Notes under the pieces: model-generated | What the model was told of the DNA's origin: nothing | Seen by the model: the letters and a program-made list of their open reading frames with translations, nothing else | The model's database searches: none | Shown: positions 4,987 to 24,138 of the stretch, one piece after another | Position numbering within the stretch: the stretch's first letter is position 1 | Layout of the letters: each line of letters opens with the position of its first letter | IMG/VR virus record: IMGVR_UViG_3300034418_000202 | Location: 1 to 24,138 of that record | DNA length: 24,138 bases | Reading direction: 5' to 3' (one strand) | Origin: a virus | Program-made: the position numbers and the translations under genes

Positions 4987-5013
4987 CCCGTGAAAAAGAA
5001 GGAGTGACAAGAT

Positions 5014-5877: not shown

Positions 5878-5891
5878 GGGAGTGATGTGAA

Positions 5892-6353: not shown

Positions 6354-6357
6354 ATAA

Positions 6358-6383
6358 TGTGGGGGCGGTTCGCCGCCCCCATA
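6358..6383 (+). terminator. Strong UUCG-loop hairpin after the head module
   Basis: Five bases after the decoration gene stop there is a perfect GC-rich inverted repeat: GGGGGCGG at 6361-6368, loop TTCG at 6369-6372, and CCGCCCCC at 6373-6380. It can be extended by T-A (6360/6381), a G-T wobble (6359/6382) and T-A (6358/6383) to 11 pairs. The position is equivalent to the T7 late terminator Tphi, which follows the coat gene. There is no T-run after the stem, so it is not a textbook intrinsic terminator; alternatives are an RNA processing site, a 3' stabiliser of coat mRNA, or a partial terminator for a phage polymerase. Confidence 0.6.
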
Positions 6384-6407
6384 CAACCCATCATGCTGGA
6401 GGGCGAT

Positions 6408-7356: not shown

Positions 7357-7358
7357 GC

Positions 7359-10182: not shown

Positions 10183-10637
10183 TGGCTTGGCAAGCAGTAG
10201 CAGCGGGCGCAGCGCTTGCTGGCGGCGTTATGGGTTACAAGGGAAATCAAGCTGCGGCAAAAGCTGCCAAGCAAACTGCTGAGTTCAATGCACAGGTTGC
10301 CGAGAACGAAGCTGTTATATTGCGCCGTGCCAAGGTAGATGAGGAAGCAAACTTACGCCAGAATTCCGAAAGGCTGGTTTCAACTCAAAAAGTAGCGACG
10401 GCAGCTTCCGGCGTAGAAATGTCTGGGAGTCCAATGCAAGCGATAGCAGACGCTTATTTTAATGTGAACATGGATGCTTTAAAAATACAATATGCCGGTG
10501 ATATCGAAGCCACAGCAAAAGCATCTGAAGCGGCACTTGCCCGCGCTGGCGGCCGCGCAAAGGCAACAGCATATAAAACAGCATCGTACCAATCATTGCT
10601 AGAATCCGGTTCCAAAGCCGCAACCCTAATGGCGTGA
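10182..10637 (+). CDS. Internal virion protein, T7 gp14-like pore protein
   Basis: 151 residues. The N terminus has a small hydrophobic, alanine- and glycine-rich segment (AVAAGAALAGGVMGYKG, residues about 5-21), followed by a long alanine-rich helix that carries the family pattern: AEFNAQVAENEAVILRRAK, RLVSTQKVATAASGVEMSGS (the conserved 'aa.sGv...gS' turn) and IQYAGDIEATAKASEA. T7 gp14 (196 residues) is ejected from the virion first and forms the outer-membrane part of the channel for DNA entry. The shorter length here comes mostly from the ends. The ATG shares a base with the preceding TAA, so it is translationally coupled. The downstream gp15- and gp16-like genes complete the ejection set. 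Confidence 0.88.
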   Translation: MAWQAVAAGAALAGGVMGYKGNQAAAKAAKQTAEFNAQVAENEAVILRRAKVDEEANLRQNSERLVSTQKVATAASGVEMSGSPMQAIADAYFNVNMDALKIQYAGDIEATAKASEAALARAGGRAKATAYKTASYQSLLESGSKAATLMA

Positions 10638-10644
10638 GGTAAAT

Positions 10645-12984
10645 ATGCCTAAGATTCCACTATACAATCAAGGTCAAGCTGGCGGCATAAGGCTGGCTAC
10701 AGGTAGCCTTGGCCCCCGCGCTGGTTCAGAGTTTGAAGCACCAGGCCGCGCATTTGCCAGTTTAGGGGAAAGCATAACTAATATTGCTACTCAATTCGGA
10801 ATGGCAGAAAAAAATAAAAACACGGCTGACAAAGATGCTGAAATTAGTGAACGCCTTGCAAGAGAAATAAAAAACATTGAGAATGACCCCGCTTACACAA
10901 CCGCGTCAGACGCGCGCACAGCTGTAGACCTGTTGAAGACACGGACATTTAGCGAGATTGATTCGCTAGACATGACTCCTAGCCAAAAACGCGCATTACG
11001 TTCTTCTGCTGCTAAGAACCTTTCTATACAGGGGCTAGATGCTGAACAAAAAGCGTATGGTAGGGGGCTGCAAGAAAGCGGTAAGAAAATGACCGCGCTA
11101 TTTGATAGTAAGTTGGACTTGCTTAACTCTATGGTTCCTGGCGACCCAAGGGTTGACCTTATCAAAGCTGACTTGAATAATTACCGTCAAGAAGCGGAAC
11201 TAAATGGCTTTTCCCAATACTTGCCGGACGGATACAAAACATCACAGGCAACTGAGGATGTTATTGCAAAGCGTCAGGTTGCTAATGTCATTTCCAAAGA
11301 GAATGTAACTGAAACAGACATCGACAACCATGCGGTTTTTTTAACAAAGCAGTTTCGGTCTGGGCAGATTAGTGAAAGCGTGTTTAAGTCAGGTTCTAAA
11401 ACTCTTGAATCGAAGCGAAAGTCTTTAAGGCTTATTGAGGCAGCTAGTCAAAGTGAAACCCTCCAATCATTTAAAAATGTTGCGAACAACATACTTTATG
11501 ACGATGACGCCACGTTCACAGATTTAGAGGCAGCAAAAGAGGAAGCTGAAAACAAAACTGGCAGATTTGCGGGTCTTGATGACGCCGACCGCCCTGCGAT
11601 TGTATCTATCCTGAAATCTGGCATGGCAGAACGCGCGAATATTGAAGGTGCGGAAGTTGCAAAAAACCTTGAGTTCGCCGCGTTAGAAGTTGCCAGGAAT
11701 GGTATTGTCTCATCGGAAGCAAAACAAAACTTGGACAGGCTGCAAAAAATAAACCCAGTGGCAGCTGAAAAGTCAGCAAGGGTTCTTAAAGCAGCAAGCA
11801 CGGCTAATAAATTTGTCGGCGGTTTAGAACTTGCATCAAATAAAACATGGGCTGAAAGAACTGCTGATTTGGTTAAGCAGCGTGACGCTGCTGTAGACGC
11901 CGGACGCAAAGACGACGCGCTTGTTTTGAACGATGCACTAAAAACAGCCCGTGATTTGCAGATTGAACGCACTGAAGCCATCAAGAAAGACCCTAAAAAG
12001 TATTACGACTTAAATGCTAAAGGCCGCAAAGAAGAACAAAAAGGCGCTGGTTATGTTGCGTGGGCAAAGTCAGTCGACTTGCGCGATGATGAAATAACTC
12101 TTTTCACAGTAGACCAGCAAGAGAATATAAAGGAACGAATTGAAGCAGCGTCACCTTTAATGAAAGCGGCTATATACGACGAAGTAAAGTCAGAGTTCCC
12201 TGGTGCGCCTAGCCATATAATAGTGCAGTCATTTCGTAAGGCGGGTATGTCTGTTGTTGACAACATCTTGATGGTGACTGCGGGGAATCCTGTTGCTGAT
12301 GATTTAGCGGCAGCAATAGCTTATGACGACAAAGACCTAAAAGCACAGATTGGCGATGTAGACGTAGAGAAAAACATTGCACAGCATGTAATGAACGAGA
12401 TGTCTGTCTTCAATAAATCAATTACTGGCGCAAGCCAGCAAGGGCCGTTTTTAAATAGGGCCGGTATTGGTGCAGAAGGCAACACAGGCGGTCGGGAATC
12501 TTTTGTGGGGGAAATGAACGCAGCTGTTCTAAAGTTAGCAAAACTTTATTTTGTTAAAGGGAATGACCCAGCTAAGGCTGCGCGCATGGCTGCGCGCGTC
12601 CACACATCGCAGTTTGTGTATTCAGAAATAAACGACCAGCCAATTAGGGTTCCGGCTAAATATGGCCAAGCTGACGCAGACAAATTTGCTGCTGGTTTAT
12701 CTCAGGTATTAAAGCAACTGCGCCCAGAACAAATCCAGCTACAGTCTGGCGCTAACGAAACAGAACAGCAAATAAAAACAGACTTAGCTGTTAGTCGTAT
12801 TCGCACAAAAGGGGCGTGGCTGACTACTGGAGACAGCAAGGGTGTCTACTTGGTTGATGAGTTAGGTGTTCCAGTAAAAGACAGGGACAATAAGCGCATA
12901 ACAATCATGTTCGCTAATATTGCGGGGGCAGCAAGCGTCTCCGACATTCCAGACTTACCGTCTGAGTTTGGGGATACCCCATAA
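10645..12984 (+). CDS. Internal virion (ejection) protein, T7 gp15-like
   Basis: 779 residues against 747 for T7 gp15, in the same gene position. The start is ATG 10645 with GAGG at 10637-10640 region just upstream. The protein is long, mostly helical and rich in Ala, Lys, Asp and Glu, without a signal peptide or catalytic motif that I can recognise. The N terminus (IPLYNQGQAGGIRLATGSLG) is the short conserved leader typical of marine podovirus gp15 equivalents, followed by AFASLGESITNIATQFG. In T7, gp15 with gp16 forms the periplasmic tube for genome entry; I infer the same here from length, helical nature and synteny rather than residue-level similarity. A short TGGGG/CCCCA inverted repeat (12969-12982) marks the end of the gene. 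Confidence 0.82.
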   Translation: MPKIPLYNQGQAGGIRLATGSLGPRAGSEFEAPGRAFASLGESITNIATQFGMAEKNKNTADKDAEISERLAREIKNIENDPAYTTASDARTAVDLLKTRTFSEIDSLDMTPSQKRALRSSAAKNLSIQGLDAEQKAYGRGLQESGKKMTALFDSKLDLLNSMVPGDPRVDLIKADLNNYRQEAELNGFSQYLPDGYKTSQATEDVIAKRQVANVISKENVTETDIDNHAVFLTKQFRSGQISESVFKSGSKTLESKRKSLRLIEAASQSETLQSFKNVANNILYDDDATFTDLEAAKEEAENKTGRFAGLDDADRPAIVSILKSGMAERANIEGAEVAKNLEFAALEVARNGIVSSEAKQNLDRLQKINPVAAEKSARVLKAASTANKFVGGLELASNKTWAERTADLVKQRDAAVDAGRKDDALVLNDALKTARDLQIERTEAIKKDPKKYYDLNAKGRKEEQKGAGYVAWAKSVDLRDDEITLFTVDQQENIKERIEAASPLMKAAIYDEVKSEFPGAPSHIIVQSFRKAGMSVVDNILMVTAGNPVADDLAAAIAYDDKDLKAQIGDVDVEKNIAQHVMNEMSVFNKSITGASQQGPFLNRAGIGAEGNTGGRESFVGEMNAAVLKLAKLYFVKGNDPAKAARMAARVHTSQFVYSEINDQPIRVPAKYGQADADKFAAGLSQVLKQLRPEQIQLQSGANETEQQIKTDLAVSRIRTKGAWLTTGDSKGVYLVDELGVPVKDRDNKRITIMFANIAGAASVSDIPDLPSEFGDTP

Positions 12985-12985
12985 C

Positions 12986-14770
12986 ATGGTAGATTTATTT
13001 ATCCCAGAACAAACTGATGACCCAGTTTTAAGTGGTAATCTGCTTGATTACACATATTCCGATGATAGCCTGGTATTCACTACTGCCATTGAAGATGCTT
13101 TATACAGCAATCCGACTACATCTTTATTTAGAATGGGTGAACTATATTTAGCTAATCGGTCTGGCAAAAAGCTAAGTAAAGATGATTGGTTGCAAAGTGA
13201 GTTCTATCGTGAGGGTTTAACGGTAGGCGACGACGGGATTACCGATGAGGCCGCAGCTGTATTGGCCGAGAGGTTTGATTACAGAACAAGACGCGACCAA
13301 ATCTTTTCACGTTCACAGGAAGGTTTTGGCACTAGCGCAATCATGCTTGGTGGTGGCTTCTTAGGCAGCATGTTCGACCCGTTAGCTGTAGGTGCATCAA
13401 TAGTTCCAAGTATCGCTGTTGGGCGCTTGGCATATAGTGCTACACAGACAGGCAGATTGGCTAGGGCAGCAAAGAAAATTGACGATGTGAGTGCGGCTAA
13501 TAAAGCAAAGTACGGCGCAACAGCGACCAGGCTTGCTGAAGGCGGCTTAGTCGGCGGTGCTGAAGCAGCTTTGTTTGAACCATTCATTTACGGCGCTGCG
13601 AGGTACGAACAGGATGACACTTACGGCGCTATGGATTCATTTATGAACATAGTGTTTGGTACTGCACTTGGCGGCGGCTTGCATGCTGTTACTGGTAAAG
13701 TTGGTGACATGACTAAACGTGCATCACCGCAAACAATAAACAATGCGTTGCAAACATCTGTTGGCGAACTTGTCACGACAGGTCAAGTGCGCGGCGCATC
13801 AAAGATAATCGAGGCAGATGTTCAGACAAGAACTGCTGGTGTTTCAGCGCGGAGACTTGACCCTCAAAGAAACCCTGGCGCGTTTGGTTCACCGCCGCGC
13901 GGCATGTTTGAGGAAGATATTATCCCAGAGGTAAAAGGTGTCGCTTACCCAGAAATTCTTAGGGCAGCATTGCCGTCTAACCGTGCAAAATTACGCCCAC
14001 AAACACTACGCCAGGCTGTTCTAGCGCGTGGGGGGATAGACCCCAACGACCCAAACCTTGCAGACCTTGGCGAAGCCGCAAAAGGAATTAAGCGTAGCCG
14101 TGCTAAAGGCGGTGTTTCTATTGACGAAATAGGTCTGCGGCTGACGGAAGAAGGTTACTTTGATGGGCGAGTTCCAGATGGTGAACGCCCCACTGTAGCG
14201 GAGATTATTGACGCGATTGTAGAAGATTACGATAGCAGCGACGGCAAAACTTTGCACAGCGGTAGGTTTTTTTCGCCCAGAGACCCTAGGCTACCAGCTT
14301 TTGAAAAAGCAGAAGAATTGTTTGAGGAGGCACGGCTTTTAGGAATTGACCCAAAAGGCATGCGCCAGGAAGACTTCTACAGAGTTCTTGGTCAAAAGCA
14401 AGATTTTGAGTTGCGCGGGATGGAAGCCCACAGTCGTCCAGAAGGCCCAAGCCAGGATGACATTGATTCATCAATAGCTGACGCGGAAGCTGCTGGTTAT
14501 CGTGGTATTGAGTTCAGCGAGTTTAGCAAAATGATGCGAGAGTTAGACGCAGAACCAGAATACAATCCGGTTGCTAGAGATGCTGATGATATAGAACTGA
14601 CAGCGATGATTGAGGACATAAAGGCCAGGGTGGAAAATGGCGAACTAGATTCCAATGAGGTTGCAGAATATTTAGCTGAAGCCGACAATATTATTCGGCA
14701 AGCTGAAAACCACGACTCATTAGCGCACCAGGCTGTAGCCTGTATTACAGGGAAATCATTCACAACATGA
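12986..14770 (+). CDS. Internal virion protein, N-terminal part of a divided gp16-like function
   Basis: 594 residues from ATG 12986, one base after the previous stop. A start further upstream at 12920 would overlap the gp15-like gene by 65 bases and adds a poor N terminus, so it is rejected. The segment GFGTSAIMLGGGFLGSMFDP and following residues (about 113-151) and SFMNIVFGTALGGGLHAVTG (about 218-237) are hydrophobic and could insert into membrane. Residues about 335-430 (LRQAVLARGGIDPNDPNL, then a SIDEIGLRLTEEGYF motif) match a helical module I know from large polyvalent and inner-capsid phage proteins. No lytic transglycosylase motif of the T7 gp16 type is visible. Together with the next gene it totals 1460 residues, near the 1318 of T7 gp16. 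The TGA overlaps the next ATG. Confidence 0.75.
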   Translation: MVDLFIPEQTDDPVLSGNLLDYTYSDDSLVFTTAIEDALYSNPTTSLFRMGELYLANRSGKKLSKDDWLQSEFYREGLTVGDDGITDEAAAVLAERFDYRTRRDQIFSRSQEGFGTSAIMLGGGFLGSMFDPLAVGASIVPSIAVGRLAYSATQTGRLARAAKKIDDVSAANKAKYGATATRLAEGGLVGGAEAALFEPFIYGAARYEQDDTYGAMDSFMNIVFGTALGGGLHAVTGKVGDMTKRASPQTINNALQTSVGELVTTGQVRGASKIIEADVQTRTAGVSARRLDPQRNPGAFGSPPRGMFEEDIIPEVKGVAYPEILRAALPSNRAKLRPQTLRQAVLARGGIDPNDPNLADLGEAAKGIKRSRAKGGVSIDEIGLRLTEEGYFDGRVPDGERPTVAEIIDAIVEDYDSSDGKTLHSGRFFSPRDPRLPAFEKAEELFEEARLLGIDPKGMRQEDFYRVLGQKQDFELRGMEAHSRPEGPSQDDIDSSIADAEAAGYRGIEFSEFSKMMRELDAEPEYNPVARDADDIELTAMIEDIKARVENGELDSNEVAEYLAEADNIIRQAENHDSLAHQAVACITGKSFTT

Positions 14771-17367
14771 GTTATGAAAATTGTAGAAAAGATATAATTT
14801 CTGCGGCGACGGCCAAAGGCGTCAAACTTACTGCCAAAGAAGCTGACGACTTAATGGACAAGTACGCGCGCGAACTGGAGAAACAGTTTGGCAACCGTGT
14901 TATTGGAGACCCAGAACATAAGACCGTTGTAAATATCATTACAGAAAACAAGAAGAACGAGTTGATACGCGCTTATATTGAAAAGCGAAATCGGGTGTTA
15001 AACCTAGTAAAGTACACTCAGTTGAAAGATTTTATTGACGGATACGATGGGCCACCAGGCGAGGCTTTAGAGGCTTTTTTAGTTGGCACACACAAGAACG
15101 TTCTTAATGGCCGCCGTAGCGTTGACTACAAGCAGAAATCTATATTCAACGAAGAATTTGGTGGAGTGTTAGCCGCTTTAGAGGAACGTGATTTAGTTCA
15201 AACATTTGCTAGCGGCAAGCTAGACGCTGCTATTAAGCGAGAGATATTTGTTTACCGTGCTAAAAGCGATGTAACTATTGATGGCAGAGAATACCCAGGT
15301 GGCAAGTTTGGGGCTAGTGGCATCAAAGAGGCGGCTGATATTGCTGAAGTATTGGTAAAAGCGCAAAGCCGTATGTTGCGCCGGAAAAACAGAAACGGTG
15401 CGTTTATTGCTGAGTTGGAAAGTTGGATTATTCGTCAAGACCACGATGCCAGTTTGATGCGAAAGGCAGGGTTTGAGGGCTGGTACAGGTTTGTTACAGA
15501 AGGCCAGTTGCTAGACGAAGCCCGCATGATAAAACAGCTTGACCCTAAAGAGGTGGATAAACTAGGGGAAGCTGGCGCGCTGAAGGAAGCGTTGCAGCGA
15601 AGCTATAATAATCTGGTTATGGGCAACCATATGAAAGTGGATGATATTCAAGGCTTCAAAGATGTAGACAAGATTACCGCGTTTAAAGGACCAGCCAACA
15701 AAGCAAAGTCTGCGAGTCAATCGCGCACAATACATTTTAAAGGGCCTGATGAAGCCCACGCATACTCACAAAAATTTAGCCGCATGTCATTTGCAGAAGC
15801 ATTTATGTCTGGAATGCAGCATGACGCAGAGACAATAGGGCTTCTTGAGGCGTTTGGCCCGAACCCTGGGGCGATGCTTGCCCGCATTTTGGATGAGTAT
15901 GAGGCGAAGCAAACGCCTGAAATGAAGAAACCGCTTTCACGGCGACGCATTGAAAATCAAATGAAAGAGGTTGACGGTTCTATGCGCGCTAGGCATATGT
16001 CTGCGCCTATCTTTGGCGGCGCGGATTTTGCTGACATAGCTGGTGGGTGGCGCATGCTGCAAAACATGATACGTTTAGGTGGTGCAACAATTTCATCGTT
16101 TTCAGACATTGCTACAAAAGCATCAGCAATACACGCTATGACTGATAAAAACATATTCCAGGCTTATGCCTCGTCTATTGGAGATGTGTTTAGCACTTTC
16201 AATTCAAAAGACCAGAAGCAGTTAGCATTTCTAATAAATGTTGGCGTTGAAAATATGCAACAAAACTTTTTGTCGCGGTTTGGTTCAAACGACAGCGGCC
16301 CAGGAATGATTGCAAAAGCCCAACAAATATTCTTTAAAATCAACGGTATGCAATGGTGGAACAAGGTTCAAAAAGTTGGTGTTGCGCGTACACTCGCCGC
16401 AGATTTAGCCAGCAAAGCGGGAAAGACATTTGACCAGTTGCCTACAGAAAGCAAATCGTTGCTGTCCAGGTACGGCATATCATCTGATGACTGGGATTTG
16501 TTGCGCAGCGCAGATTTGTTTGCAGCTGATGGGCGTAAGTACATGGTTGCACAGGCTGTAGAAAATATCGACCCAGCAAAAATTGACGCCGAGTTAAGTA
16601 AACGCCTAGGGATAACAGATATAACACAGAACCAGCGTGACAATTTTGTTGATGAGTTGCGTGGTAAACTTGGCACCCTTTACACAGACACGGCAGACAT
16701 TGCTATTCCGACCCCAGGTGCTAAAGAACGTGCAATTATGAACCAAGGATTGATGCGGGGCACACCAGCCGGTGAGGCAATCCGCACAATCATGCAGCTA
16801 AAAGCATTCCCTATTACCTATCTAACGAAAGGCATAGCTAGTCAGTATCACATGAGTGGTAAGGCTGGGATTGCTAAGATGATGATTGGCAGCACAATCA
16901 TGGGTTATTTGTCGATGGCTACTAAAGATATCCTTAGAGGAAAAGAACCACGGGATGCTTTTAGTGCTGACATGGCTAAGAATAAAGACACATTCATAGC
17001 TGCGTTTTTGCAGGGCGGCGGTGCTGGTATTTTTGGAGACTTCATATTTGGCGAGGCAAACAGATATGGTCAGTCATTTACAACAACCCTTTTAGGCCCC
17101 ACAGCTGGAACCGCTGATGACCTATACACAATATACTCAAAAGTAATTCAGGGTGATGATGCGGCGTCAAATTTGGTGCGCTTGGGATTGCAAAATGCAC
17201 CATTTATCAATCTATTCTATACCCGCGCGGCCATGGAATATTTGTTTATTTATGGAATACAGGAAGCATCAAACCCAGGGTATCTGCGTAGAATGGAAAA
17301 GCGGTTAAAAACAGAAAACGACCAAGAGTTCATATTCTCGCCATCTGAATACGCGGTTCAATTCTAA
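14767..17367 (+). CDS. Internal virion protein, C-terminal gp16-like part
   Basis: 866 residues, coupled to the previous gene by ATGA. It starts with a helical region containing CRKDIISAATAKGVKLTAKE, and has several blocks I recognise from gp16-type proteins of marine podoviruses: FMSGMQHDAETIGLLEAFGP (about 350), NMIRLGGATISSFSDIATKA (about 433), and the C-terminal hydrophobic pair GIAKMMIGSTIMGYLSMATK (about 702) and FIAAFLQGGGAGIFGDFIFG (about 743), then NRYGQSFTTTLLGPTAGTAD. These hydrophobic stretches fit a protein that ends up in or across the inner membrane during DNA entry. No peptidase or transglycosylase site is seen. A gap of about 50 bases follows, the first in more than 10 kb. 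Confidence 0.8.
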   Translation: MSYENCRKDIISAATAKGVKLTAKEADDLMDKYARELEKQFGNRVIGDPEHKTVVNIITENKKNELIRAYIEKRNRVLNLVKYTQLKDFIDGYDGPPGEALEAFLVGTHKNVLNGRRSVDYKQKSIFNEEFGGVLAALEERDLVQTFASGKLDAAIKREIFVYRAKSDVTIDGREYPGGKFGASGIKEAADIAEVLVKAQSRMLRRKNRNGAFIAELESWIIRQDHDASLMRKAGFEGWYRFVTEGQLLDEARMIKQLDPKEVDKLGEAGALKEALQRSYNNLVMGNHMKVDDIQGFKDVDKITAFKGPANKAKSASQSRTIHFKGPDEAHAYSQKFSRMSFAEAFMSGMQHDAETIGLLEAFGPNPGAMLARILDEYEAKQTPEMKKPLSRRRIENQMKEVDGSMRARHMSAPIFGGADFADIAGGWRMLQNMIRLGGATISSFSDIATKASAIHAMTDKNIFQAYASSIGDVFSTFNSKDQKQLAFLINVGVENMQQNFLSRFGSNDSGPGMIAKAQQIFFKINGMQWWNKVQKVGVARTLAADLASKAGKTFDQLPTESKSLLSRYGISSDDWDLLRSADLFAADGRKYMVAQAVENIDPAKIDAELSKRLGITDITQNQRDNFVDELRGKLGTLYTDTADIAIPTPGAKERAIMNQGLMRGTPAGEAIRTIMQLKAFPITYLTKGIASQYHMSGKAGIAKMMIGSTIMGYLSMATKDILRGKEPRDAFSADMAKNKDTFIAAFLQGGGAGIFGDFIFGEANRYGQSFTTTLLGPTAGTADDLYTIYSKVIQGDDAASNLVRLGLQNAPFINLFYTRAAMEYLFIYGIQEASNPGYLRRMEKRLKTENDQEFIFSPSEYAVQF

Positions 17368-17418
17368 CAACCTTTCGCAACAGGTAAAAATGCTGTATAT
17401 ATATGCTAGGAGTTAAAT
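17368..17418 (+). promoter_or_regulatory. Intergenic gap before the adsorption module, AT-rich possible promoter
   Basis: A 51-base gap separates the ejection genes from the gp17-like fibre. It holds an alternating TATATATAT run at 17396-17404, followed by TAGGAG as ribosome site for ATG 17419. An AT-alternating stretch at a module boundary could be a -10-like element or a phage polymerase promoter, but there is no clear -35 box and I found no second copy elsewhere in the window. Confidence 0.25.
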
Positions 17419-19164
17419 ATGACAGTTAGCAGTACCACAACTAAAAATAGCTACGCGGGTGATAGCAGCACCGTTGCGTTTTCGTACACGTTCAAGATAT
17501 TTGACGAAGACGACATCACGGTTGTTTTGCGTAACAACACTACTGGCGCTGAAACAGTCCAGGCTATTTCAACTAATTACACTGTATCTGGTGTTGGTAA
17601 CGCTGGTGGTGGCACTGTTACGTTTGTAACTGCCCCAGCCACAGGCAATACTGTTGTTTTGCTGCGGATTACTCCGCTGACACAGCTAACTGACTACACG
17701 CCAAACGACCCGTTCCCAGCGGAATCACATGAGGACGCGCTTGATAAGCTAACATTTATCACGCAAGAACTACAAGAGGAAGTCGGGCGTTCACTCAAGC
17801 TATCGCAGACAAACACTATTGCTACGGCTGAGTTTACGGCAGGGCCAGCCGACCGTGCTAACAAAATCTTAGGCTTTGACACCAATGGTGACTTGGCTAT
17901 CTTCCAGGAGATTGGCACATACAAAGGCACAGACACAACCACGACAACGGCAGACTATGTTGAACGTGACATTGTGAAGTCAACCACAGCCGCACAACTA
18001 GATAACGTATACATTGCGTTACAGAACTCGCCTACTGGCACAGCCCTAACAAACACATCATATTGGGCATTGCTTGTAGATGCGGTATCTGCCGCAACTT
18101 ACGCAACCAATGCAGCTAACAGCGCAGCGGCTGCGTCAACATCAGAAACCAATGCCGCTACTAGCGAGACAAATGCTGCGGCAAGCTATGATGATTTTGA
18201 TGACAGATATTTAGGGGCAAAAGCTGCCGACGTTCTGGTAGACAATGACGGCGACCCGCTGATTACTGGTGCTTTGTACTTTAACACCACTGATGGTGAT
18301 ATGCGCGTTTACAACGGTAGCGCGTGGATTAACGTAGTATCATCACTAGGCAACCTTGCTAACATTGTTGAAGATGCAACACCGCAGCTTGGTGGTGATT
18401 TGGACATCAATGGGCAGAGTATTGTGTCCACGTCAAATGCTGACATTGTTCTTACGCCAGATGGCACAGGTAATGTAACGCTTGGCACATTGACGTTTGA
18501 TGCAGACCAGACAGTAGGTGCTGGTCAGGATGACTATGTTCTGACCTACGATGACGCATCTGGTACTATTGTGCTTGAGGCTAGCGCTGGCGGTGATGTT
18601 GTTAATGACACAACTCCGCAGCTTGGTGGCACACTTGATATAAACGGTCAGCTTGTTCAGTTCCCAGATAGTACAGGTGCTACAGATAACCGGCTGCAAC
18701 TTGGTACAAGCCAAGATATGCAACTGTATCACGACGGCACAACAAACAAGATTGATACATCTGCATCACAGGAACTGCATGTAAATAGTGACGATGTGCT
18801 CTTTTATGATAATTCAGGCACAACACGAACTGCTATCGTGTCACCTGGCAGCACAATGAATTTCCAGCTATACGACAGCACAGGCACGGTTCGCGTGTTC
18901 GCTGTCAACGGTAGTGGCAATGAGTTTTATCGTAGCGTTTATATTGAAGACCAGAGAAACCTTGCCTTTAAAGAGGATTCTGCAAACGGAAATAATTATG
19001 TAGCGTTTCAAGCACCAGCTTCTGTTGCAGCAAACGTGGTATGGACATTGCCTGATGCAGATGGAACAAGCGGTCAAAGACTGCAAACAGATGGTTCAGG
19101 CGTTCTAAGTTGGGCAGATGAACAAGACCCTCAAGCATTAGCATTCGCAATAGCGTTAGGATAG
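17419..19164 (+). CDS. Tail fibre protein with T7 gp17-like attachment domain
   Basis: 581 residues (T7 gp17 is 553). The N-terminal ~135 residues are the gp17 virion-attachment domain: STTTKNSYAGDSSTVAFSYT, FKIFDEDDITVVLRN, an ISTNYTVSGVG strand, LRITPLTQLTDYTPNDPFPA and ESHEDALDKLTFITQELQEE. This is followed by a possible small carbohydrate-binding-like unit (about 175-215, ending TNTSYWALLVDA), then a coiled linker of alternating Ala/Thr-Ser-Glu-Thr-Asn (about 223-258), and shaft modules with two related TPQLGGxLDINGQ motifs (about 321 and 400). The distal end, YVAFQAPASVAANVVWTLPD plus QRLQTDGSGVLSWA, is a widespread fibre module. No chaperone domain is present. It attaches to the gp11/gp12-like tail and probably carries the other adsorption proteins. 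Confidence 0.92.
   Translation: MTVSSTTTKNSYAGDSSTVAFSYTFKIFDEDDITVVLRNNTTGAETVQAISTNYTVSGVGNAGGGTVTFVTAPATGNTVVLLRITPLTQLTDYTPNDPFPAESHEDALDKLTFITQELQEEVGRSLKLSQTNTIATAEFTAGPADRANKILGFDTNGDLAIFQEIGTYKGTDTTTTTADYVERDIVKSTTAAQLDNVYIALQNSPTGTALTNTSYWALLVDAVSAATYATNAANSAAAASTSETNAATSETNAAASYDDFDDRYLGAKAADVLVDNDGDPLITGALYFNTTDGDMRVYNGSAWINVVSSLGNLANIVEDATPQLGGDLDINGQSIVSTSNADIVLTPDGTGNVTLGTLTFDADQTVGAGQDDYVLTYDDASGTIVLEASAGGDVVNDTTPQLGGTLDINGQLVQFPDSTGATDNRLQLGTSQDMQLYHDGTTNKIDTSASQELHVNSDDVLFYDNSGTTRTAIVSPGSTMNFQLYDSTGTVRVFAVNGSGNEFYRSVYIEDQRNLAFKEDSANGNNYVAFQAPASVAANVVWTLPDADGTSGQRLQTDGSGVLSWADEQDPQALAFAIALG
18376..18654 (+). repeat. Pair of shaft motifs TPQLGGxLDINGQ in the gp17-like fibre
   Basis: Two imperfect direct copies encode ATPQLGGDLDINGQ (starting 18376) and TTPQLGGTLDINGQ (starting about 18610). 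They differ mostly at third codon positions and at one residue. Such units are the triple-stranded beta building blocks of trimeric fibre shafts; here they bracket a GTGNVTLGTLTFDADQTVG segment. Confidence 0.7.
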
Positions 19165-19168
19165 GACA

Positions 19169-19513
19169 ATGGCAAACGCATTTTTATCAGAAACAGATAC
19201 AGCCATAGGCACGTCACCAGCCAGTGTCTTGACTTGTGGCGCATCAACCCAAACGACTGTAATTGGCATGAGTGTTGCCAATATTGTCACCAGCCAGATT
19301 ACTGTTGACGTACAGCTTGACGCATCTGCGCGTACCAGCGGTGCTGAAGATAGTGTATACTTGGTTAAGGCTGCACCGATACCTGTTGGCGGTAGCTTGG
19401 TTGTTATTGGTGGCGACCAGAAAGTTGTGATGGAACCAGGGGATGTTATCAAGGTTACGTCAGATACAGCATCATCCGCTGACGTAGTTATTAGTCACCT
19501 TGATATTACATAA
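19169..19513 (+). CDS. Small tail-associated structural protein
   Basis: 114 residues, four bases after the fibre stop, with a TAGGA site before ATG 19169. The protein is all beta by appearance: MANAFLSETDTAIGTSPASV at the start, an ITVDVQLDAS strand, EDSVYLVKAAPIPVGGSLVV and DQKVVMEPGDVIKVTSDTAS, then a short final strand DVVISHLDIT. This order (paired strands, a PVGGSLxVI turn and an EPGDxIKVxS motif) is one I recognise from small virion proteins placed next to fibre genes in marine podoviruses and myoviruses. I infer a tail or fibre accessory role. It is too small for an enzyme, and there is no signal peptide. Confidence 0.6.
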   Translation: MANAFLSETDTAIGTSPASVLTCGASTQTTVIGMSVANIVTSQITVDVQLDASARTSGAEDSVYLVKAAPIPVGGSLVVIGGDQKVVMEPGDVIKVTSDTASSADVVISHLDIT

Positions 19514-19523
19514 GGATTAGGCA

Positions 19524-20621
19524 ATGGCTTATTTAGGCAACACACCTGCGGCACGATTCAGTTCCATGCAGTATCAGGATTTAACTGGTGGTACTGGGAC
19601 TAGCTTTACGTTAGACCACGCTGTTGGTAACGAACAGGAAATAGAGGTTTTTGTCAACAACGTCCGGCAAGAACCTAGTGTTGCGTATACTGTGTCCGGC
19701 ACTGCATTGACTATGACAGGCAGCATTGTAGCCACTGATGTTTTCTATGTAGTGTTCCAAGGTCTTGCCCAGCAAACGGCAACACACCCATCTAATCAAG
19801 CCCTACAGGCTACCAGCGGTACATTCTCTGGTGCTGTGTCTGCTGCATCTGCAACCGTAACTGGCGACCTCACCGTAGACACCAACACGCTTTACGTTGA
19901 CAGCACGAATAACAACGTGGGCATTGGGACTGGTTCGCCTAATATGCCGTTGCACATCAGTAACTCTACCGATGGAAATCTAGTTAATTTATATACAACT
20001 GGAACAGGTGGTAGTGCGGCTCAATTAACAATTACTGGTGCTTCAAACCTCATTAAAATAACAACGGGCGGAAGTGATGCTTTAGCATTTGAAACATCCG
20101 GTTCTAACGAACGGATGCGTATTGATAACAATGGAAATGTTGCGCTAAATGGCAGTGTTCGTGACTCATCAAGGTTTACCATTAACGGAAATGTGTCCAA
20201 CCCTAACCTTCAATCGTGGCAAAATACCACGTCTGGCGTTACTCACTTTTGGTTTAGAAATCCGAATGGAATTGTTGGAAGTATAGTCACTAGCGGTTCA
20301 TCAACTGCTTACAACACCTCATCCGACTATCGCCTCAAGACCGCAGTCACTTACGACTGGGATGCAACCACACGCCTCAAGCAGTTACGCCCAGCTAGGT
20401 TTGAGTGGATTGCTGATGGCGAGGACGCTGTGCCTGTCGATGGTTTCCTAGCACACGAGGTGCAGGACGTTGTTCCAGAAGCTATCACCGGCACACACAA
20501 TGAAGTGGATGACGAGGGCAACCCTGTCTATCAGGGCATTGACCAGTCTAAGCTAGTACCGTTGTTGGTTAAGACTATCCAAGAATTAGAAGCCCGCATT
20601 GCAGCGTTGGAGGCAAACTAA
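19524..20621 (+). CDS. Tail fibre with C-terminal S74 self-cleaving chaperone (first copy)
   Basis: 365 residues, with AAGGA before ATG 19524. The N terminus MAYLGNTPAARFSSM plus the strand set VFVNNVRQEPSVAYTVSGTA (about 42-61) resembles the beta attachment domain of gp17-like fibres. The centre has short shaft motifs (DLTVDTNTLYVDSTNNNVGI) and a serine/threonine/asparagine-rich adhesin-like part. The C-terminal ~100 residues are an S74 intramolecular chaperone: SSDYRLKTAV with Ser267 and Lys272 five residues apart, as in the Ser-Lys dyad of phage endosialidase chaperones; then GFLAHEVQDVVPEAITGTHN and the terminal coiled helix LVKTIQELEARIAALEAN. The chaperone helps trimerisation and then cuts itself off before Ser267. 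The TAA shares a base with the next ATG, and GGAGG upstream favours re-initiation. Confidence 0.9.
   Translation: MAYLGNTPAARFSSMQYQDLTGGTGTSFTLDHAVGNEQEIEVFVNNVRQEPSVAYTVSGTALTMTGSIVATDVFYVVFQGLAQQTATHPSNQALQATSGTFSGAVSAASATVTGDLTVDTNTLYVDSTNNNVGIGTGSPNMPLHISNSTDGNLVNLYTTGTGGSAAQLTITGASNLIKITTGGSDALAFETSGSNERMRIDNNGNVALNGSVRDSSRFTINGNVSNPNLQSWQNTTSGVTHFWFRNPNGIVGSIVTSGSSTAYNTSSDYRLKTAVTYDWDATTRLKQLRPARFEWIADGEDAVPVDGFLAHEVQDVVPEAITGTHNEVDDEGNPVYQGIDQSKLVPLLVKTIQELEARIAALEAN
19866..19925 (+). repeat. Fibre shaft repeat shared with 21753-21812
   Basis: Sixty bases here and at 21753-21812 in the second S74 fibre are related: by eye 49 of 60 positions match, with no gaps, and most differences are at third codon positions. 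Both encode DLTVDTNTLYVDSTNN followed by xVGI. They are the best DNA-level sign that the two S74 fibres share a common ancestral shaft segment and could recombine with each other. Confidence 0.85.
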
Positions 20622-21109
20622 TGGCACTAAGTAAAATTACAAAAGCTGATGACATAACGTTATCCGGCGGTGTCTATGTGGGCGGCACGGCTTCGGATAA
20701 TTATCTGGATGACTATGAGGAGGGGACTTGGACTCCGACTTATGAGGGGTCAACTTCAAACCCTACAGTAACTCACGATACCCAAGATGGTCGGTATACA
20801 AAAGTAGGTAACCTAGTAACAATAACCTTTAAAATTGGCACAGATTCCGCTACTGGTGGAAGCGGAAATCTTCTTGTTGCTGGACTACCTTTTACTCCAG
20901 CCACCACATTTTACTTTGGAGTTGTTGCATACAACTTTTCTGGCGCAAACGGCACTTATAATAGCGATAGACCAATTTATAGTTTTGTTACAGGAAGCAC
21001 GATGCGTCTTTGGCGGGGAGACACCGGCAACCTACAGTGTTCTGCTCTTTCTAGTTCAACTAACGCTAATCGCTTATTCGGGGTAGCTCATTACTACACA
21101 GACACATAA
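20621..21109 (+). CDS. Putative receptor-binding / fibre-tip protein
   Basis: 162 residues starting on the last base of the previous stop. It begins MALSKITKADDITLSGGVYV, a short shaft-like leader, then SDNYLDDYEEGTWTPTYEGS (about 26-45) and GRYTKVGNLVTITFKI (about 58-73), a module frequently seen at the tips of phage tail fibres in front of the variable host-binding part. The remainder is beta-rich with aromatic residues (FYFGVVAYNFSGANG, MRLWRGDTGN). In other phages this module is usually the C-terminal part of a long fibre; here it is a separate small gene between two S74 fibres. It lacks its own virion-attachment domain, so it likely docks onto one of them. Its ligand cannot be inferred. 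Confidence 0.65.
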   Translation: MALSKITKADDITLSGGVYVGGTASDNYLDDYEEGTWTPTYEGSTSNPTVTHDTQDGRYTKVGNLVTITFKIGTDSATGGSGNLLVAGLPFTPATTFYFGVVAYNFSGANGTYNSDRPIYSFVTGSTMRLWRGDTGNLQCSALSSSTNANRLFGVAHYYTDT

Positions 21110-21139
21110 CCCCATCGGAGATGAGGGTTGGACAGTCCA
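21108..21139 (+). other. Two adjacent hairpins between the fibre-tip gene and a small gene
   Basis: AACCCCATC at 21108-21116 can pair with GATG-A-GGGTT at 21120-21129 (nine pairs, one bulged A at 21124, loop GGA). Right after it, TGGAC (21129-21133) and GTCCA (21135-21139) form a tight second inverted repeat. The first arm includes part of the TAA stop. There is no T-run, so it is a structural or processing element rather than a clear terminator. The AAAGGAG site of the next gene follows. Confidence 0.45.
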
Positions 21140-21155
21140 GCCAAAGGAGATAAAA

Positions 21156-21410
21156 ATGGCACTAACAGAAGAAACAGTACAAGACAAAATTGAAATCGTA
21201 GGCGACTACAAGCACGTTCAGGTACGCACCGCAACAGTCATCAAGCGTGATGGCGTTGAGATTAGTCGTGCGTTTTCACGACACGTTGTAGCACCTAACG
21301 CTGACATCAGTGGTGAAAGCGCAGAGGTACAAGCTATCTGTGCAGCGGTACATACACAGGCTGTGAAGGATGCCTATGCGGCACATCTGGCGGCACAAGA
21401 AACTCCATAA
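21156..21410 (+). CDS. Small conserved phage protein of the fibre region
   Basis: 84 residues with a strong AAAGGAG site. It reads MALTEETVQDKIEIVGDYKH, VQVRTATVIKRDGVEISRAF, SRHVVAPNADIS and a helical end VQAICAAVHTQAVKDAYAAH. I recognise this type (beta strands 'qVqVRtatvI.rDGveisr.f.RHv..P..d.sg' followed by a helix) from marine phage genomes, where it stands beside fibre genes, but no function is known to me. Its size and the conservation of the strand part suggest a structural accessory such as a fibre connector or chaperone. It lies between the fibre-tip gene and the second S74 fibre. Confidence 0.65.
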   Translation: MALTEETVQDKIEIVGDYKHVQVRTATVIKRDGVEISRAFSRHVVAPNADISGESAEVQAICAAVHTQAVKDAYAAHLAAQETP

Positions 21411-21419
21411 GGAAACACG

Positions 21420-22637
21420 ATGGCATATATAGGAAAATCCCCTACAGGAACTGGCGTTAGGTCACGTTATTATTACACAGCCACTGGCGGTGAAACATCA
21501 CTGTCCGGTGCTGATGATAATAGCAACACGCTGGTATTTAGTGATGGCAACTATGTAGACGTTATGCTTAACGGCGTTACGTTGGTTGCTGGCACTGACT
21601 ACAACACTTCGACAGCCAATACCATTGGTGGTCTGGCGGCTTTGTCTGCAAGCGACATTGTAGAAATTGTGGTGTATGACATCTTTACTGTAGCGGATAC
21701 TGTGTCTGCTAAGAATGGCGGTACGTTTAGCGGTAATGTGGCTATGAACGGCGACCTTACCGTGGACACTAACACCCTCTACGTTGATAGCACGAATAAT
21801 CGGGTGGGCATAAACCAAGCGTCACCAAGCCACCCTATTCACGTTGGCACATCTGATTTGATACTGGACAGCAGCGGAAACTTACAGCTAGGCAAAACGG
21901 CATCTGGAATAGGAACCAACGGCATCACCCTTTACGGCGATGGTGCTATTGGTGCGGCTGACTTTACGCGAGATGGCGGCAGAACACTTGCGCTGAACCG
22001 CAAGACTAGTGATGGCGACATTGTTGAATTCCGCAAAGACGGCACCACTGTGGGTAGTGTTGGAACAAACGAAAACACTGACTTGTATATTGCGGGTGGT
22101 GATACTGGTCTTTTGTTTAACGATAGTGCTGATTTTATTTCTCCAGCTACCGCAACTGGCTCAGGTAGAGATAATGCGGTAGATTTAGGATATTCAACGG
22201 TTCGTTGGGGTGACGTTTACGCCACAAACGGCACTATCCAAACATCTGACGCTAACGAAAAGCAGCAAATCGCAACTCTGACTGATGCTGAAATCACAGC
22301 CGCTAAAGCCATCAGCCAACTGTTCAAAACCTTCAAGTGGAACAGCGCAGTTGAAGCCAAAGGCGATGCAGCCAGAACACACACAGGTGTTATTGCGCAG
22401 GACGTTGAGGCAGCTATGACTTCCGCTGGGCTAGATGCTGGTGACTATGCGTTTTTTATTAGCAGCACTTGGTATGTTGATGCTGATGGCAATGAGGTAG
22501 AAGCTGACGCTGAAGGTGCTATTGAAAAGAACCGCAAGGGCATCCGCTATCCTGAGTTGCTTGCCTTTGTGGGTGCAGCAACTGAACAACGGTTGGCTAA
22601 TATTGAAACACGCCTAGCGGCACTGGAGAATGTGTAA
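21420..22637 (+). CDS. Tail fibre with C-terminal S74 self-cleaving chaperone (second copy)
   Basis: 405 residues, AAGGA before ATG 21420. The N terminus MAYIGKSPTGTGVRSRYYYT followed by YVDVMLNGVTLVAGTDYNTS (about 45-64) parallels the first S74 fibre. The centre has shaft segments (GDLTVDTNTLYVDSTNNRVG; SGNLQLGKTASGIGTNGITL) and GRDNAVDLGYSTVRWGDVYA, the typical linker into the chaperone. The S74 domain has QTSDANEKQQIATLTDAEI with Ser276 and Lys281 spaced as in the Ser-Lys dyad, then GVIAQDVEAAMTSAGLDA, a region KGIRYPELLAFVGAATEQ and the terminal coiled helix RLANIETRLAALENV. This chaperone belongs to a different sub-type from the first copy (TSDxNEK rather than SSDYRLK), so the two were acquired separately or have diverged long ago. 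Confidence 0.9.
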   Translation: MAYIGKSPTGTGVRSRYYYTATGGETSLSGADDNSNTLVFSDGNYVDVMLNGVTLVAGTDYNTSTANTIGGLAALSASDIVEIVVYDIFTVADTVSAKNGGTFSGNVAMNGDLTVDTNTLYVDSTNNRVGINQASPSHPIHVGTSDLILDSSGNLQLGKTASGIGTNGITLYGDGAIGAADFTRDGGRTLALNRKTSDGDIVEFRKDGTTVGSVGTNENTDLYIAGGDTGLLFNDSADFISPATATGSGRDNAVDLGYSTVRWGDVYATNGTIQTSDANEKQQIATLTDAEITAAKAISQLFKTFKWNSAVEAKGDAARTHTGVIAQDVEAAMTSAGLDAGDYAFFISSTWYVDADGNEVEADAEGAIEKNRKGIRYPELLAFVGAATEQRLANIETRLAALENV

Positions 22638-23701
22638 TGAGTAGGGCAAGAGAATTTGCAGATTTAGCTGGTAGCGCAGATGCTGGTGGTCTGACAGGCC
22701 GCAACTTCATCATCAATGGTGCTATGCAGGTTAATCAAAGAGGTGATGTTAGTGCTTCATCAGGGGGTGGTTATTTTTCTTGTGACCGTTATTCAATACG
22801 ACAGTCTGGTAGTTATCTAGCTTCGTTAACCTTTGATGTAACGCAAGAAACTACCTCACCACCTAATGGTTTTAAATATTATTACCAGTTAAAAACTTTA
22901 ACAGGGGATACGCCTTCTGGCGATGAAGCAGGTAGTGTTAGATATGTTGTAGAAGATAAAGATATTGAAAACTTTGGCTTTGGAACATCTGATGCTAAGT
23001 CATTTACTTTATCTTTTTGGGTTAAAGCGAGTGTTGCAGGTATTTATTCCGTAGGGTTTGTTGCAGGTGGTAGTGACTACTCTTATGTAGCAGAATACAC
23101 TATATCTTCTGTTAACACTTGGGAGTATATATCTATTTCTGTACCTGCCCCTACTTCTGGAACGTGGTCATCTTCGGGTGCAGGTATGCAAATACACTGG
23201 AATGTAGCAGGTGCTTCTGGCGGTACTTATGACACAACAGCCGGTTCTTGGATAGCGGCTGATAAACGTTATAGTAATAATCAAGTTAATAATACTGCGA
23301 CCGCAAACAACACGTTTAATTTCACAGGCGTCCAGCTAGAAGTAGGTGACACAGCCACGCCGTTTGAACACCGCAGCTTTGGCGATGAGTTGCGTAGGTG
23401 TCAGCGGTATTACCAGTTAAATGTATCGTGTTCTGGGGGGTATTCAAACAGCGGTGGCTCACAAGCTGCGTTTATTGTTCCTTTTGCTGTAGATATGCGG
23501 GCTACACCAAGCGCAACATTAGTAAGCGGAACAAATGTAATAGAAGACTATTATAGTGCTAGTAGAACTGCCACTTCTATTGGCACCTTTGGGAGTCCGT
23601 CTAGTAGTAGAAGCCTAGGCGTAGTTCTTGATACTTCTACCATAGGAGACAAAACTCAAGGTTTATTTGCTAACGCTGTTGGTTTTGATTCGGAGTTATA
23701 A
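22637..23701 (+). CDS. Receptor-binding tail protein with conserved GVQLEVG anchor
   Basis: 354 residues, GGAG eight bases before an ATG that shares a base with the previous TAA. The N terminus AGGLTGRNFIINGAMQVNQR (residues about 17-36) is a well-known phage tail motif. A jelly-roll-like, aromatic, carbohydrate-binding-type domain follows (SFTLSFWVKASVAGIYSVGF and TWEYISISVPAP, about 115-180). Then comes the very common FTGVQLEVGDTATPFEHRSF and ELRRCQRYYQL block (about 229-262), and finally a variable domain to the end. This layout is typical of receptor-binding tail proteins. The DNA of the two variable parts is much more AT-rich than the conserved anchor, suggesting exchange of binding domains. 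There is no chaperone or enzyme motif. Confidence 0.82.
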   Translation: MSRAREFADLAGSADAGGLTGRNFIINGAMQVNQRGDVSASSGGGYFSCDRYSIRQSGSYLASLTFDVTQETTSPPNGFKYYYQLKTLTGDTPSGDEAGSVRYVVEDKDIENFGFGTSDAKSFTLSFWVKASVAGIYSVGFVAGGSDYSYVAEYTISSVNTWEYISISVPAPTSGTWSSSGAGMQIHWNVAGASGGTYDTTAGSWIAADKRYSNNQVNNTATANNTFNFTGVQLEVGDTATPFEHRSFGDELRRCQRYYQLNVSCSGGYSNSGGSQAAFIVPFAVDMRATPSATLVSGTNVIEDYYSASRTATSIGTFGSPSSSRSLGVVLDTSTIGDKTQGLFANAVGFDSEL

Positions 23702-23703
23702 AA

Positions 23704-23898
23704 ATGAATGAAATAGCTATTACATCAGCACAATATCAAACACATCAAATAAACGAGACAGAAGCTGTAAACTGTAGTATCAAAGCCACTATTGACGGCA
23801 TCGAAACGTCAGTACCCCTTGACCCAGCCAACCGGCACTACGCAGAGATTATGCGTCAGGTAGACGCTGGCACCTTGACCATAGCAGAGGCAGACTAA
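23704..23898 (+). CDS. Small conserved phage protein, unknown function
   Basis: 64 residues, starting two bases after the previous stop. The C-terminal half, SVPLDPANRHYAEIMRQVDA and GTLTIAEAD, is a motif I have seen in many marine phage small proteins in fibre or lysis regions; its function is not known to me. The N-terminal half reads as beta strands (ITSAQYQTHQINETEAVNCS). It contains no membrane segment. The TAA shares its last base with the holin-like start. Confidence 0.65.
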   Translation: MNEIAITSAQYQTHQINETEAVNCSIKATIDGIETSVPLDPANRHYAEIMRQVDAGTLTIAEAD

Positions 23899-24071
23899 TG
23901 ACCGAAGAAACCAAGACAACGGCTGACCTAGCTTTTGGTGGTATTACTGTTGGTGCGTTCTTTGAGGCGTTGCCTGAGATTACTGCGCTAGTTGCGTTGT
24001 GTTGGTGGTTGCTGCGTATCTGGGAGACCGAGACCGTGAAGCGGTTGACTGGTCGACAGGACGATGTATAA
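23898..24071 (+). CDS. Holin-like small membrane protein
   Basis: 57 residues, translated by hand because of its small size; GAGG at 23887-23890 precedes ATG 23898. The sequence has a short polar N terminus (MTEETKTTAD), then a hydrophobic segment running from about residue 11 to 41 (GGITVGAFFEALPEITALVA, then LCWWLLRIW), and a charged C terminus (ETETVKRLTGRQDDV). The order 'lp...aLvaLcWwllRIwEtetVkrltGr' is that of small holins common in marine podoviruses and is comparable in position to T7 gp17.5, directly after the fibre genes. A holin accumulates in the inner membrane and triggers lysis at a set time. The hydrophobic stretch contains a Glu-Pro break, so one or two membrane passes are possible. 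The next gene starts inside its last codons. Confidence 0.78.
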   Translation: MTEETKTTADLAFGGITVGAFFEALPEITALVALCWWLLRIWETETVKRLTGRQDDV

Positions 24072-24138
24072 GGCGATTGTCCTAGCTTGTGTCATTGGTT
24101 CACCGACTAACTGTGTAGAATTTCACGATATTAGAGGC
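24064..24138 (+). CDS. Start of a small exported protein (3' end outside window)
   Basis: Only the first 25 codons are present. ATG 24064 overlaps the end of the holin gene by eight bases, with AGGA just upstream. The translation begins MYKAIVLACVIGSPTNCVEF, a lysine followed by a hydrophobic segment with two cysteines, like the start of a short exported or membrane-anchored protein. Small proteins of this kind follow the holin in marine podoviruses. It could be a spanin component, but too little is visible to decide. Confidence 0.5.
   Translation, partial: MYKAIVLACVIGSPTNCVEFHDIRG

Follow-up and report, generated by a model that had tools for sequence, protein, structure and literature searches.

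The range of bacteria that a phage can kill depends on host recognition, and a probable phage adhesin gene whose base composition changes sharply along its length raises the question of whether its binding domains have been exchanged between phages. Such a gene, here called gene 7, lies on IMG/VR virus record IMGVR_UViG_3300034418_000202, the whole stretch of 24,138 nucleotides (nt) of which is hereafter the window; its close relatives are other IMG/VR contigs. A sequence-only reading of this DNA had proposed that AT-rich variable blocks on either side of a GC-richer conserved block in gene 7 are what recombination at conserved anchors would leave. Comparison of gene 7 with its homologs makes it very likely that its product is an adhesin with domains swapped by recombination at conserved motifs.

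Domain architecture and break points of gene 7

The gene 7 protein matches the phrog_4492 tail fiber profile (E 2.1e-58, residues 15-352 against profile positions 785-1094 of 1096) and covers only the last third of that profile. No Pfam family was recovered up to E 1, and a sequence-profile search against solved structures, likewise up to E 1, matched only two antibody chains (0.36 and 0.45); therefore gene 7 is without a solved relative by sequence. A structure model built from 49 sequences, with a mean predicted local distance difference test score (pLDDT) of 75.6, displays a low-confidence helix at residues 4-15, a beta sandwich reaching to about residue 236, a helix at residues 248-258 and a C-terminal strand domain (the C-domain), with the strand at 226-236 and the helix at 248-258 connecting the two domains. 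The predicted sandwich has the form of a CBM4/CBM22-like jelly roll (CBM, carbohydrate-binding module): CBM4 folds align with model residues ~21-237 (Z 12.8; 4bj0 at 2.8 Å over 161 residues, VIA-align), as do the jelly rolls of the Pseudomonas phage Pa193 tail fibre (PDB 9b45; residues 20-245, Z 10.7) and of CBA120 tailspike 4 (5w6h; residues 22-237, Z 11.3), both of which resemble gene 7 by predicted fold without a sequence-profile match. Gene 7 is thus predicted to encode a CBM-like jelly roll and a separate C-terminal domain. The exchanged parts may bind host sugars; a shared CBM4-like fold by itself shows no function.

Based on the model, the conserved block of the sequence-only reading corresponds to the last jelly-roll strand plus the linker helix, and a second conserved zone, around RNFIINGAMQVNQRG, lies at the opposite end of the jelly roll. 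Fold alignments start at residues 20-25 in most of the top rows, and the model is poor at this 5' zone (block pLDDT 54-57). The parts of the gene are listed here with GC3, the GC fraction at third codon positions:

22637..23701, plus strand: gene 7, 354-residue tail fibre and probable adhesin (phrog_4492)
22688..22753, plus strand: 5' exchange zone, residues 18-39, around RNFIINGAMQVNQRG, start of the predicted jelly-roll part; placed by break points
22745..23311, plus strand: variable cassette 1, bulk of the predicted CBM-like jelly roll, residues 37-225, GC3 0.217; placed by model and composition
23312..23416, plus strand: conserved anchor, residues 226-260, predicted last jelly-roll strand (226-236) and linker helix (248-258), GC3 0.571; placed by identity, structure and break points
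23417..23698, plus strand: variable cassette 2, predicted C-terminal domain, residues 261-354, GC3 0.255, with a conserved D-x-E-L end; placed by composition

We collected 149 distinct gene-7-like open reading frames (ORFs), some contigs contributing two, and left out those that did not span residues 40 to 255. The identity profile compares 133 homologs, including the window's own copy (L001), with the window; the codon-identity, long-match and anchor/cassette GC analyses use 133 sequences including the window, one further comparison 134 rows, and the domain test the 125 of the 133 sequences in which both domains are long enough. Median amino-acid identity to the window is 54% over residues 1-35, 24 and 30% over the jelly roll, 69% over the anchor and 18% over the C-domain; conserved motifs alternate with variable segments along the gene, as is expected of a modular adhesin. 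A search for matches of at least 150 nt at 75% identity or more, not conditioned on domain, recovered 26 among the 133 sequences, 8 of them end-to-end and 18 partial. Internal match ends fall within residues 16-42 or 226-263, which make up 18% of the gene, in 20 of 24 cases (binomial 9e-12, the pairs not being fully independent and the zones having been drawn after earlier comparisons revealed the break locations).

The two domains also part company in both directions. In the domain test free end gaps make the identities of unrelated domains meaningless (near 0), and only values of about 55 and above were used. Jelly rolls are at least 80% identical in 14 pairs, with the C-domain common to 8 and not to 6; C-domains are at least 80% identical in 13 pairs, with the jelly roll common to 8, 60-80% identical in 1 and below 60% in 4. 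With 80% as the threshold, discordance is as common as concordance (11 pairs against 8). The swaps are of two kinds: 1) the jelly roll is common (88-99%) and the C-domain is not in L263/L276, L194/L221, L004/L005, L005/L006, L007/L009 and L269/L312; 2) the C-domain is common (82-100%) and the jelly roll is at most 62% identical in L255/L259, L191/L228, L012/L023, L007/L231 and L244/L309. For instance, L263 and L276 are 99% identical up to residue 262 and 42% beyond, and in five pairs DNA identity changes between 93-99% and 42-50% across the anchor. On the 5' side, the change points of 10 chosen pairs lie within residues 18-39. On the 3' side the choice of pairs forces the break to about residues 222-262, and hence the break at the anchor in 14 of 14 chosen pairs is not counted as a test.

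Within the window's own gene the 5' break is directly seen, gene 7 being 95% identical to L069 up to position 22732 (range 22729-22732) and 50% identical after it; the 3' break we infer. The expectation of the sequence-only reading, that identity should fall sharply at the edges of the conserved block, is thus borne out both by L069 and by the clustering of family-wide match ends in the two conserved zones.

The same pattern extends to cultured phages. Nine cultured Pseudomonas putida phages were compared, out of 26 Pseudomonas records with a match; one C-domain allele is present in L316-L318 and another in L319-L324, the two being 62-73% identical in two 100-nt blocks covering most of the domain. 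ErraM (L316) and Laguja-2 (L322) are 80-100% identical in 30-nt blocks from residues 411 to 600 and then 57-67% at 601-640, and a CQRYF motif at residue 606 adjoins this drop in identity. Laguja-2 and L319, on the other hand, are 83-100% identical beyond the CQRYF motif, with jelly rolls at 73-100%. The cultured phages break at the same motif, and hence assembly chimeras alone cannot account for the break. Together with the L069 break and the 20 match ends they support the proposal of binding-domain exchange by recombination at conserved anchors.

Proposed exchange at the anchors and its alternatives

We propose that gene 7 encodes an adhesin assembled from exchangeable parts, namely a short N-terminal segment, the CBM-like jelly roll, the linker helix and the C-terminal domain. 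Two short conserved DNA blocks at the jelly-roll edges (residues ~18-39 and 228-262) would serve as exchange anchors, at which co-infecting phages might recombine such that either the jelly roll or the C-terminal domain is replaced independently; the exchange would preserve the frame and the fold edges, and the neighbouring genes would stay in place. Crossing-over at the anchors is probably homologous, and exchange may alter host range. The S74 fibres encoded upstream seem to use anchors of their own (collar and S74 end) in like manner. In some pairs silent codon choices in the anchor are shared almost fully despite unrelated flanks: identical codons are used at 24 of 26 same-residue anchor positions between the window and L271 (9.9 expected) and at 26 of 29 between the window and L247 (11.4 expected), with jelly rolls at 44-48%. 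Such sharing would fit exchange within or at the anchor.

Several observations weigh against this reading. Nearly all loci are metagenome contigs, and L015, a relative in the fibre region, is the same as L039 as far as 21877 and the same as the window from 21711 onward; this exact 167-nt run (21711-21877), common to all three, means that L015 could be an assembly chimera. Four of the 24 internal match ends lie elsewhere (residues 66, 87, 128 and 173), all in matches of 76-78% identity. One scan of viral_contigs did not find the window's C-domain on another jelly roll, or the reverse, and its C-domain had no relative there except two contigs of the same virus; further, L003 is identical to the window throughout gene 7. 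The model is of low to moderate confidence in the first 50 residues (pLDDT 40-58) and in the C-domain from residue 261 (block pLDDT 55-78). L316 and L322, the cultured pair, fall to 63-70% identity at residues 391-410 as well and partly regain it inside the C-domain (83% at 641-650, 77-89% from 661); hence their break is no clean replacement reaching the gene end, which slightly reduces our confidence in exchange. Finally, over 8259 divergent pairs, same-residue codons of the anchor agree in 46.5% of cases, where 39.7% would be expected. The high DNA identity of the conserved block singled out by the sequence-only reading is mostly owing to amino-acid constraint; the excess that recent exchange predicts is present in some pairs only.

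These codon figures (0.465 against 0.397) would fit a history without exchange, the anchor being a slow-evolving structural core and the flanks diverging fast by point mutation under host-driven selection, and the position of the conserved residues at the jelly-roll edges agrees with such a history. It cannot easily give 93-99% beside 42-50% DNA identity in five pairs, the reverse pairs, or the fall from 95% to 50% against L069 within the window's own gene, and we consider it very improbable. Fusion of different alleles at the conserved anchor by metagenome assemblers could have produced all but the few loci that are not metagenome contigs; the 167-nt run in gene 6 is long enough to misjoin, and a few unrelated gene 7 pairs have exact runs of 55-74 nt. 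However, the longest exact run around the anchor in unrelated alleles has a median of 10 nt, a 99th percentile of 29 and a maximum of 74, and runs of at least 55 nt are present in only 6 of 7726 such pairs, so that misjoining at the gene 7 anchor should be rare. Moreover, whole alleles, identical or nearly so, are found again in separate contigs (the 8 end-to-end matches) and cultured phage genomes break at the same motif, which makes chimeric assembly a very improbable source of the pattern. A dedicated diversity generator, i.e. an invertible segment or a diversity-generating retroelement in place of general recombination, would also yield variable adhesin segments with constant flanks. Here, however, whole domains are replaced by unrelated ones rather than point-varied. 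In 17400-24138 neither inverted repeats flanking gene 7, as in a shufflon, nor a direct repeat over it were found at 24 nt or longer; a single weak inverted repeat (27 nt at 70% complementarity, with arms at 17564-17590 and 19461-19487) lies off gene 7. No reverse transcriptase or recombinase was present among the window proteins scanned, which were a part of those encoded by what is itself a fragment. A generator of this kind is barely credible here.

Silent-site composition and relation to known adhesins

The two hand counts behind the sequence-only reading are exact (20 G/C of 60 at 22861-22920, 34 of 60 at 23341-23400), and the two samples alone are mild, 60-nt windows with at most 20 G/C making up 2.2% of all and those with at least 34 making up 8.3%. 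The lowest-GC 400 nt of the whole window are 22744-23143 (GC 0.368 against 0.471 overall), and the reported succession of AT-rich, GC-richer and AT-rich blocks recurs in the GC3 of gene 7 (0.217, 0.571 and 0.255). We compared these values with the same protein randomly re-coded with the window's own codon use in 2000 trials. Residues 37-225 are expected at 0.425 (standard deviation 0.034), and 0 of 2000 re-codings are as low as observed; residues 261-354 are expected at 0.405, with 0.15% of re-codings so low. The conserved block (residues 226-260) lies in the upper 4% of an expectation of 0.431, a weak excess by itself, and residues 1-36 are not GC-rich (0.333 against 0.470). As re-coding of the same protein fails to reach the observed values, the AT-richness is synonymous and not forced by amino-acid content; amino-acid constraint as its source is ruled out by the persistence of the contrast at third positions given the protein. 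The centre of the first S74 fibre (gene 3, 19960-20298), also noted earlier as AT-rich, is indeed so, with GC3 0.283 against 0.435 expected (0 of 2000 so low), and 0.469 before and 0.551 after it.

The compositional argument needs amending at the level of the family. The GC3 analyses comprise 132, 131 and 130 homologs, and a contig-level comparison of fourfold-degenerate sites 118. Relative to each contig's own codon use (131 homologs), GC3 is raised by 0.064 in the first 36 residues and by 0.098 in the anchor, and lowered by 0.084 in the jelly roll and by 0.089 at residues 261-345; residues 1-10 are at -0.068, and all ten-residue bins in 41-220 and 261-350 are negative. GC3 is higher in the anchors than in the cassettes in 131 of 133 homologs, and fourfold-site GC is 50% in anchors and 27% in cassettes, with the anchor value the greater in 127 of 133. 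Of 353 circular label shifts, only 2 do as well on fourfold-site GC, the best being a shift of three residues. This stripe is present in low-, middle- and high-GC3 contigs (130 homologs), the slope of GC3 on contig GC3 being 0.51-0.52 for cassettes and 0.60 for the anchor; it is weaker in four GC-rich P. putida phages (L325-L327 left out), where the anchor exceeds the jelly roll in 4 of 4 and the C-domain is lowest.

At the contig level (118 homologs) the anchors have a fourfold-site GC of 0.503, whereas ORFs average 0.337 and the highest ORF of each contig averages 0.445; the anchors are above the contig mean in 106 of 118, and 13% of ORFs are above them. The cassettes (0.270) fall within the ORF range, below the contig mean in 86 of 118. 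Hence, since the stripe is family-wide and the anchors are on average outside the contig range, composition alone is no evidence of foreign blocks, and on average it is the anchors, not the cassettes, that are the compositional outlier. In the window GC-richness is confined to the second anchor: alone it is above the ORF range (0.64, 11 sites), and the pooled anchors (0.40, 20 sites) are inside that range (0.23-0.53). The highest 35-residue GC3 window starts at residue 223 in gene 7, 123 in gene 6 and 104 in gene 3, the first overlapping the conserved anchor and the latter two the collar repeat (residues 111-131 and 114-134, respectively). As a backbone control, 35-residue windows reach the anchor GC3 residual never in the nozzle gene, in 0.6% of cases in the portal and in 7.9% in the capsid; some capsid windows equal the anchor, and hence its GC3 is extreme yet not unique, suggestive of recombination-linked GC bias rather than proof of it. 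Site conservation is disfavoured as a driver of codon choice, conserved jelly-roll columns being as GC3-poor as variable ones (-0.075 and -0.083). In the anchor itself some site-level effect of conservation may exist, with high- and middle-conservation columns at about +0.12 and the 7 variable columns at only +0.011, and with residues 1-10 negative.

The stripe, as distinct from the exchange itself, could come about in two ways. Variable domains might have been drawn from an AT-rich gene pool common to many phages, with the anchors resident, and the shallow dependence of cassette GC3 on contig GC3 fits this (the anchor slope is also low). This account predicts anchors at the genome level, however, whereas they exceed even the mean of the highest ORF per contig, and the cassettes fall within the ORF range; we regard it as possible and on the unlikely side. 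Alternatively, the anchors might be recombination hotspots at which GC-biased repair of heteroduplexes (gene conversion) raises silent-site GC whatever the base composition of the phage. We hold this idea doubtful, rating it lower because the window's own pooled anchors are within its ORF range. A small open-access literature search, covering titles and the openings of abstracts, found no earlier report of a GC peak at such exchange anchors. If GC-biased repair did act at the joints, it would be evidence for GC-biased gene conversion in phages, and fourfold-site GC could map adhesin exchange points without an alignment.

In the adhesin locus of T-even phages, conserved motifs reportedly alternate with variable segments, and exchange takes place at the motifs. 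By the features tested, namely the motifs and the break points at them, gene 7 belongs to this kind of modular adhesin with motif recombination, an analogy of arrangement in which the joints would play the same part. Gene 7 differs in protein family and fold (the predicted CBM-like jelly roll with its separate C-terminal domain) and, unlike the T-even adhesin, sits in a podovirus-type structural module from metagenomes. Receptor-binding proteins are described as proteins in which domain shuffling is concentrated and still under way (Smug et al. 2023, PMC10684548), and gene 7 appears to share this domain mosaicism. That work is presented as detecting shared domains across many families by sensitive homology search; the present analysis locates the breaks to within a few codons in a single family and relates them to fold edges and silent-site GC. 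In hypervariable metaviromic islands of marine phages, the commonest recognisable genes are those for putative carbohydrate-binding-domain proteins (14) and tail fibres (12) (PMC3909814). Those islands rest on read recruitment, and the main text of the study appears to give no within-gene junctions and to leave recombination unmentioned. A gene-7 relative in the uncultured phage record AP013538 is annotated as a putative carbohydrate-binding-domain protein. Mosaic or hypervariable receptor-binding proteins are already described (PMC10684548, PMC3909814), and the new elements here are joints at both ends of one fold, two-way swaps within one family, the comparison with cultured phages and the silent-site GC peak. 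Joints at both edges of a sugar-binding-type domain suggest that whole domains can be replaced without damage to the fold. Their placement to a few codons provides a rule for dividing such adhesins into parts for study. Exchange of adhesin parts at conserved joints is a known strategy for changing hosts.

Upstream fibres and neighbouring genes

By PHROGs the window encodes a structural module with a head-tail adaptor, a major head protein and tail proteins. The protein families found suggest a T7-type podovirus, and likewise the name nozzle for the product of the gene at 7359-9767. The genes and repeats around gene 7 are:

17419-19164: fibre, phrog_1640 N-terminus, with a Pfam T7-tail match under the curated cut-off
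19524..20621, plus strand: gene 3, first S74 fibre (PF13884, E 4.7e-7)
19863..19924, plus strand: collar anchor copy 1 (GDLTVDTNTLYVDSTNN), a direct repeat of 62 nt with 84% identity to its other copy at 21750-21811
20621..21109, plus strand: gene 4, first 119 nt conserved, rest replaced in L015
21420..22637, plus strand: gene 6, second S74 fibre (PF13884, E 5.2e-12), C-terminal part apparently mobile among fibre genes
21750..21811, plus strand: collar anchor copy 2, in gene 6; fibres of L037 and L069 change partner at or adjoining it
23704..23898, plus strand: gene 8, 64 residues, conserved right-hand neighbour (498 relatives, best 80 examined)

The fibre region looks to have been exchanged both across genomes and among fibre genes, judging from alignments of its relatives. 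In L069 the gene 6 N-terminus is joined to a gene 3 S74 end (20295-20555, 90%), in L041 a gene 6 S74 end (22211-22628, 90%) is found on a gene-3-type fibre, and L037 switches from gene-3-type to gene-6-type at the collar repeat; the low-GC3 centre of gene 3 lies between the collar and the S74 end. From 21711 to the end of its contig at 22863, L015 does not differ from the window, and 24 mismatches lie within 21401-21710; its gene 4 is 90% identical over 20620-20739 and 38-53% in 60-nt blocks of 20740-21099, i.e. an unrelated remainder. The 42 differences of L003 in 4225 positions form two clusters, 33 of them in 20013-20453 and 9 in 23936-24029, and 20454-23935 is free of them. The changes at 20013 and 20060 and all nine of the second cluster, eleven in total, are the window's own, L003 having the codons of L032 there, and hence the tract of L003's own is 20114-20453 (31 differences, in gene 3). 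L032, a contig of the same virus, has 11 differences from the window in 19,372 positions. Over 4767-24138, outside a 94-nt tract, only 20013 and 20060 differ between the two, as S/G and I/M changes, and both sit in the AT-rich central part of gene 3. In that tract (23936-24029, in a small gene after gene 8) nine substitutions, seven silent and two within one Val/Ile codon, separate the window from L032 and L003, which are otherwise identical to it for kilobases around; the alignment suggests a short tract of gene conversion peculiar to the window's contig.

A gene-7-like ORF is present on the same strand in 75 of the 80 best gene 8 loci (2 of the 75 being the same virus). In phage 7B11-B a small gene at the equivalent position is annotated as a tail assembly chaperone, and gene 8 might possibly be one too. 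Contigs L013 and L299 each carry two gene-7-like ORFs, as do L193, L202 and L216; those of L299 are 85% identical in DNA over 119 nt at the anchor region.

Elsewhere in the window, a 135-residue protein (836-1243) adjoining a terminase-like gene matches the Pfam family HlyC, an RTX toxin acyltransferase family (E 3.8e-10, above the curated cut-off), an unexpected match within a phage structural region. Nine contigs (L108-L112, L115 and L173-L175) have head and tail genes 82-95% identical to the window and lose DNA similarity at 10664-10814, at the start of the gene at 10645-12984, with the contigs continuing; the genes after 10645-10814 seem, from these alignments, to be a second exchanged module. 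In L109-L112 and L173-L175 the tail gene at 7359-9767 is longer by ~200-210 nt, the extra DNA at 7787-7879 being an optional domain.

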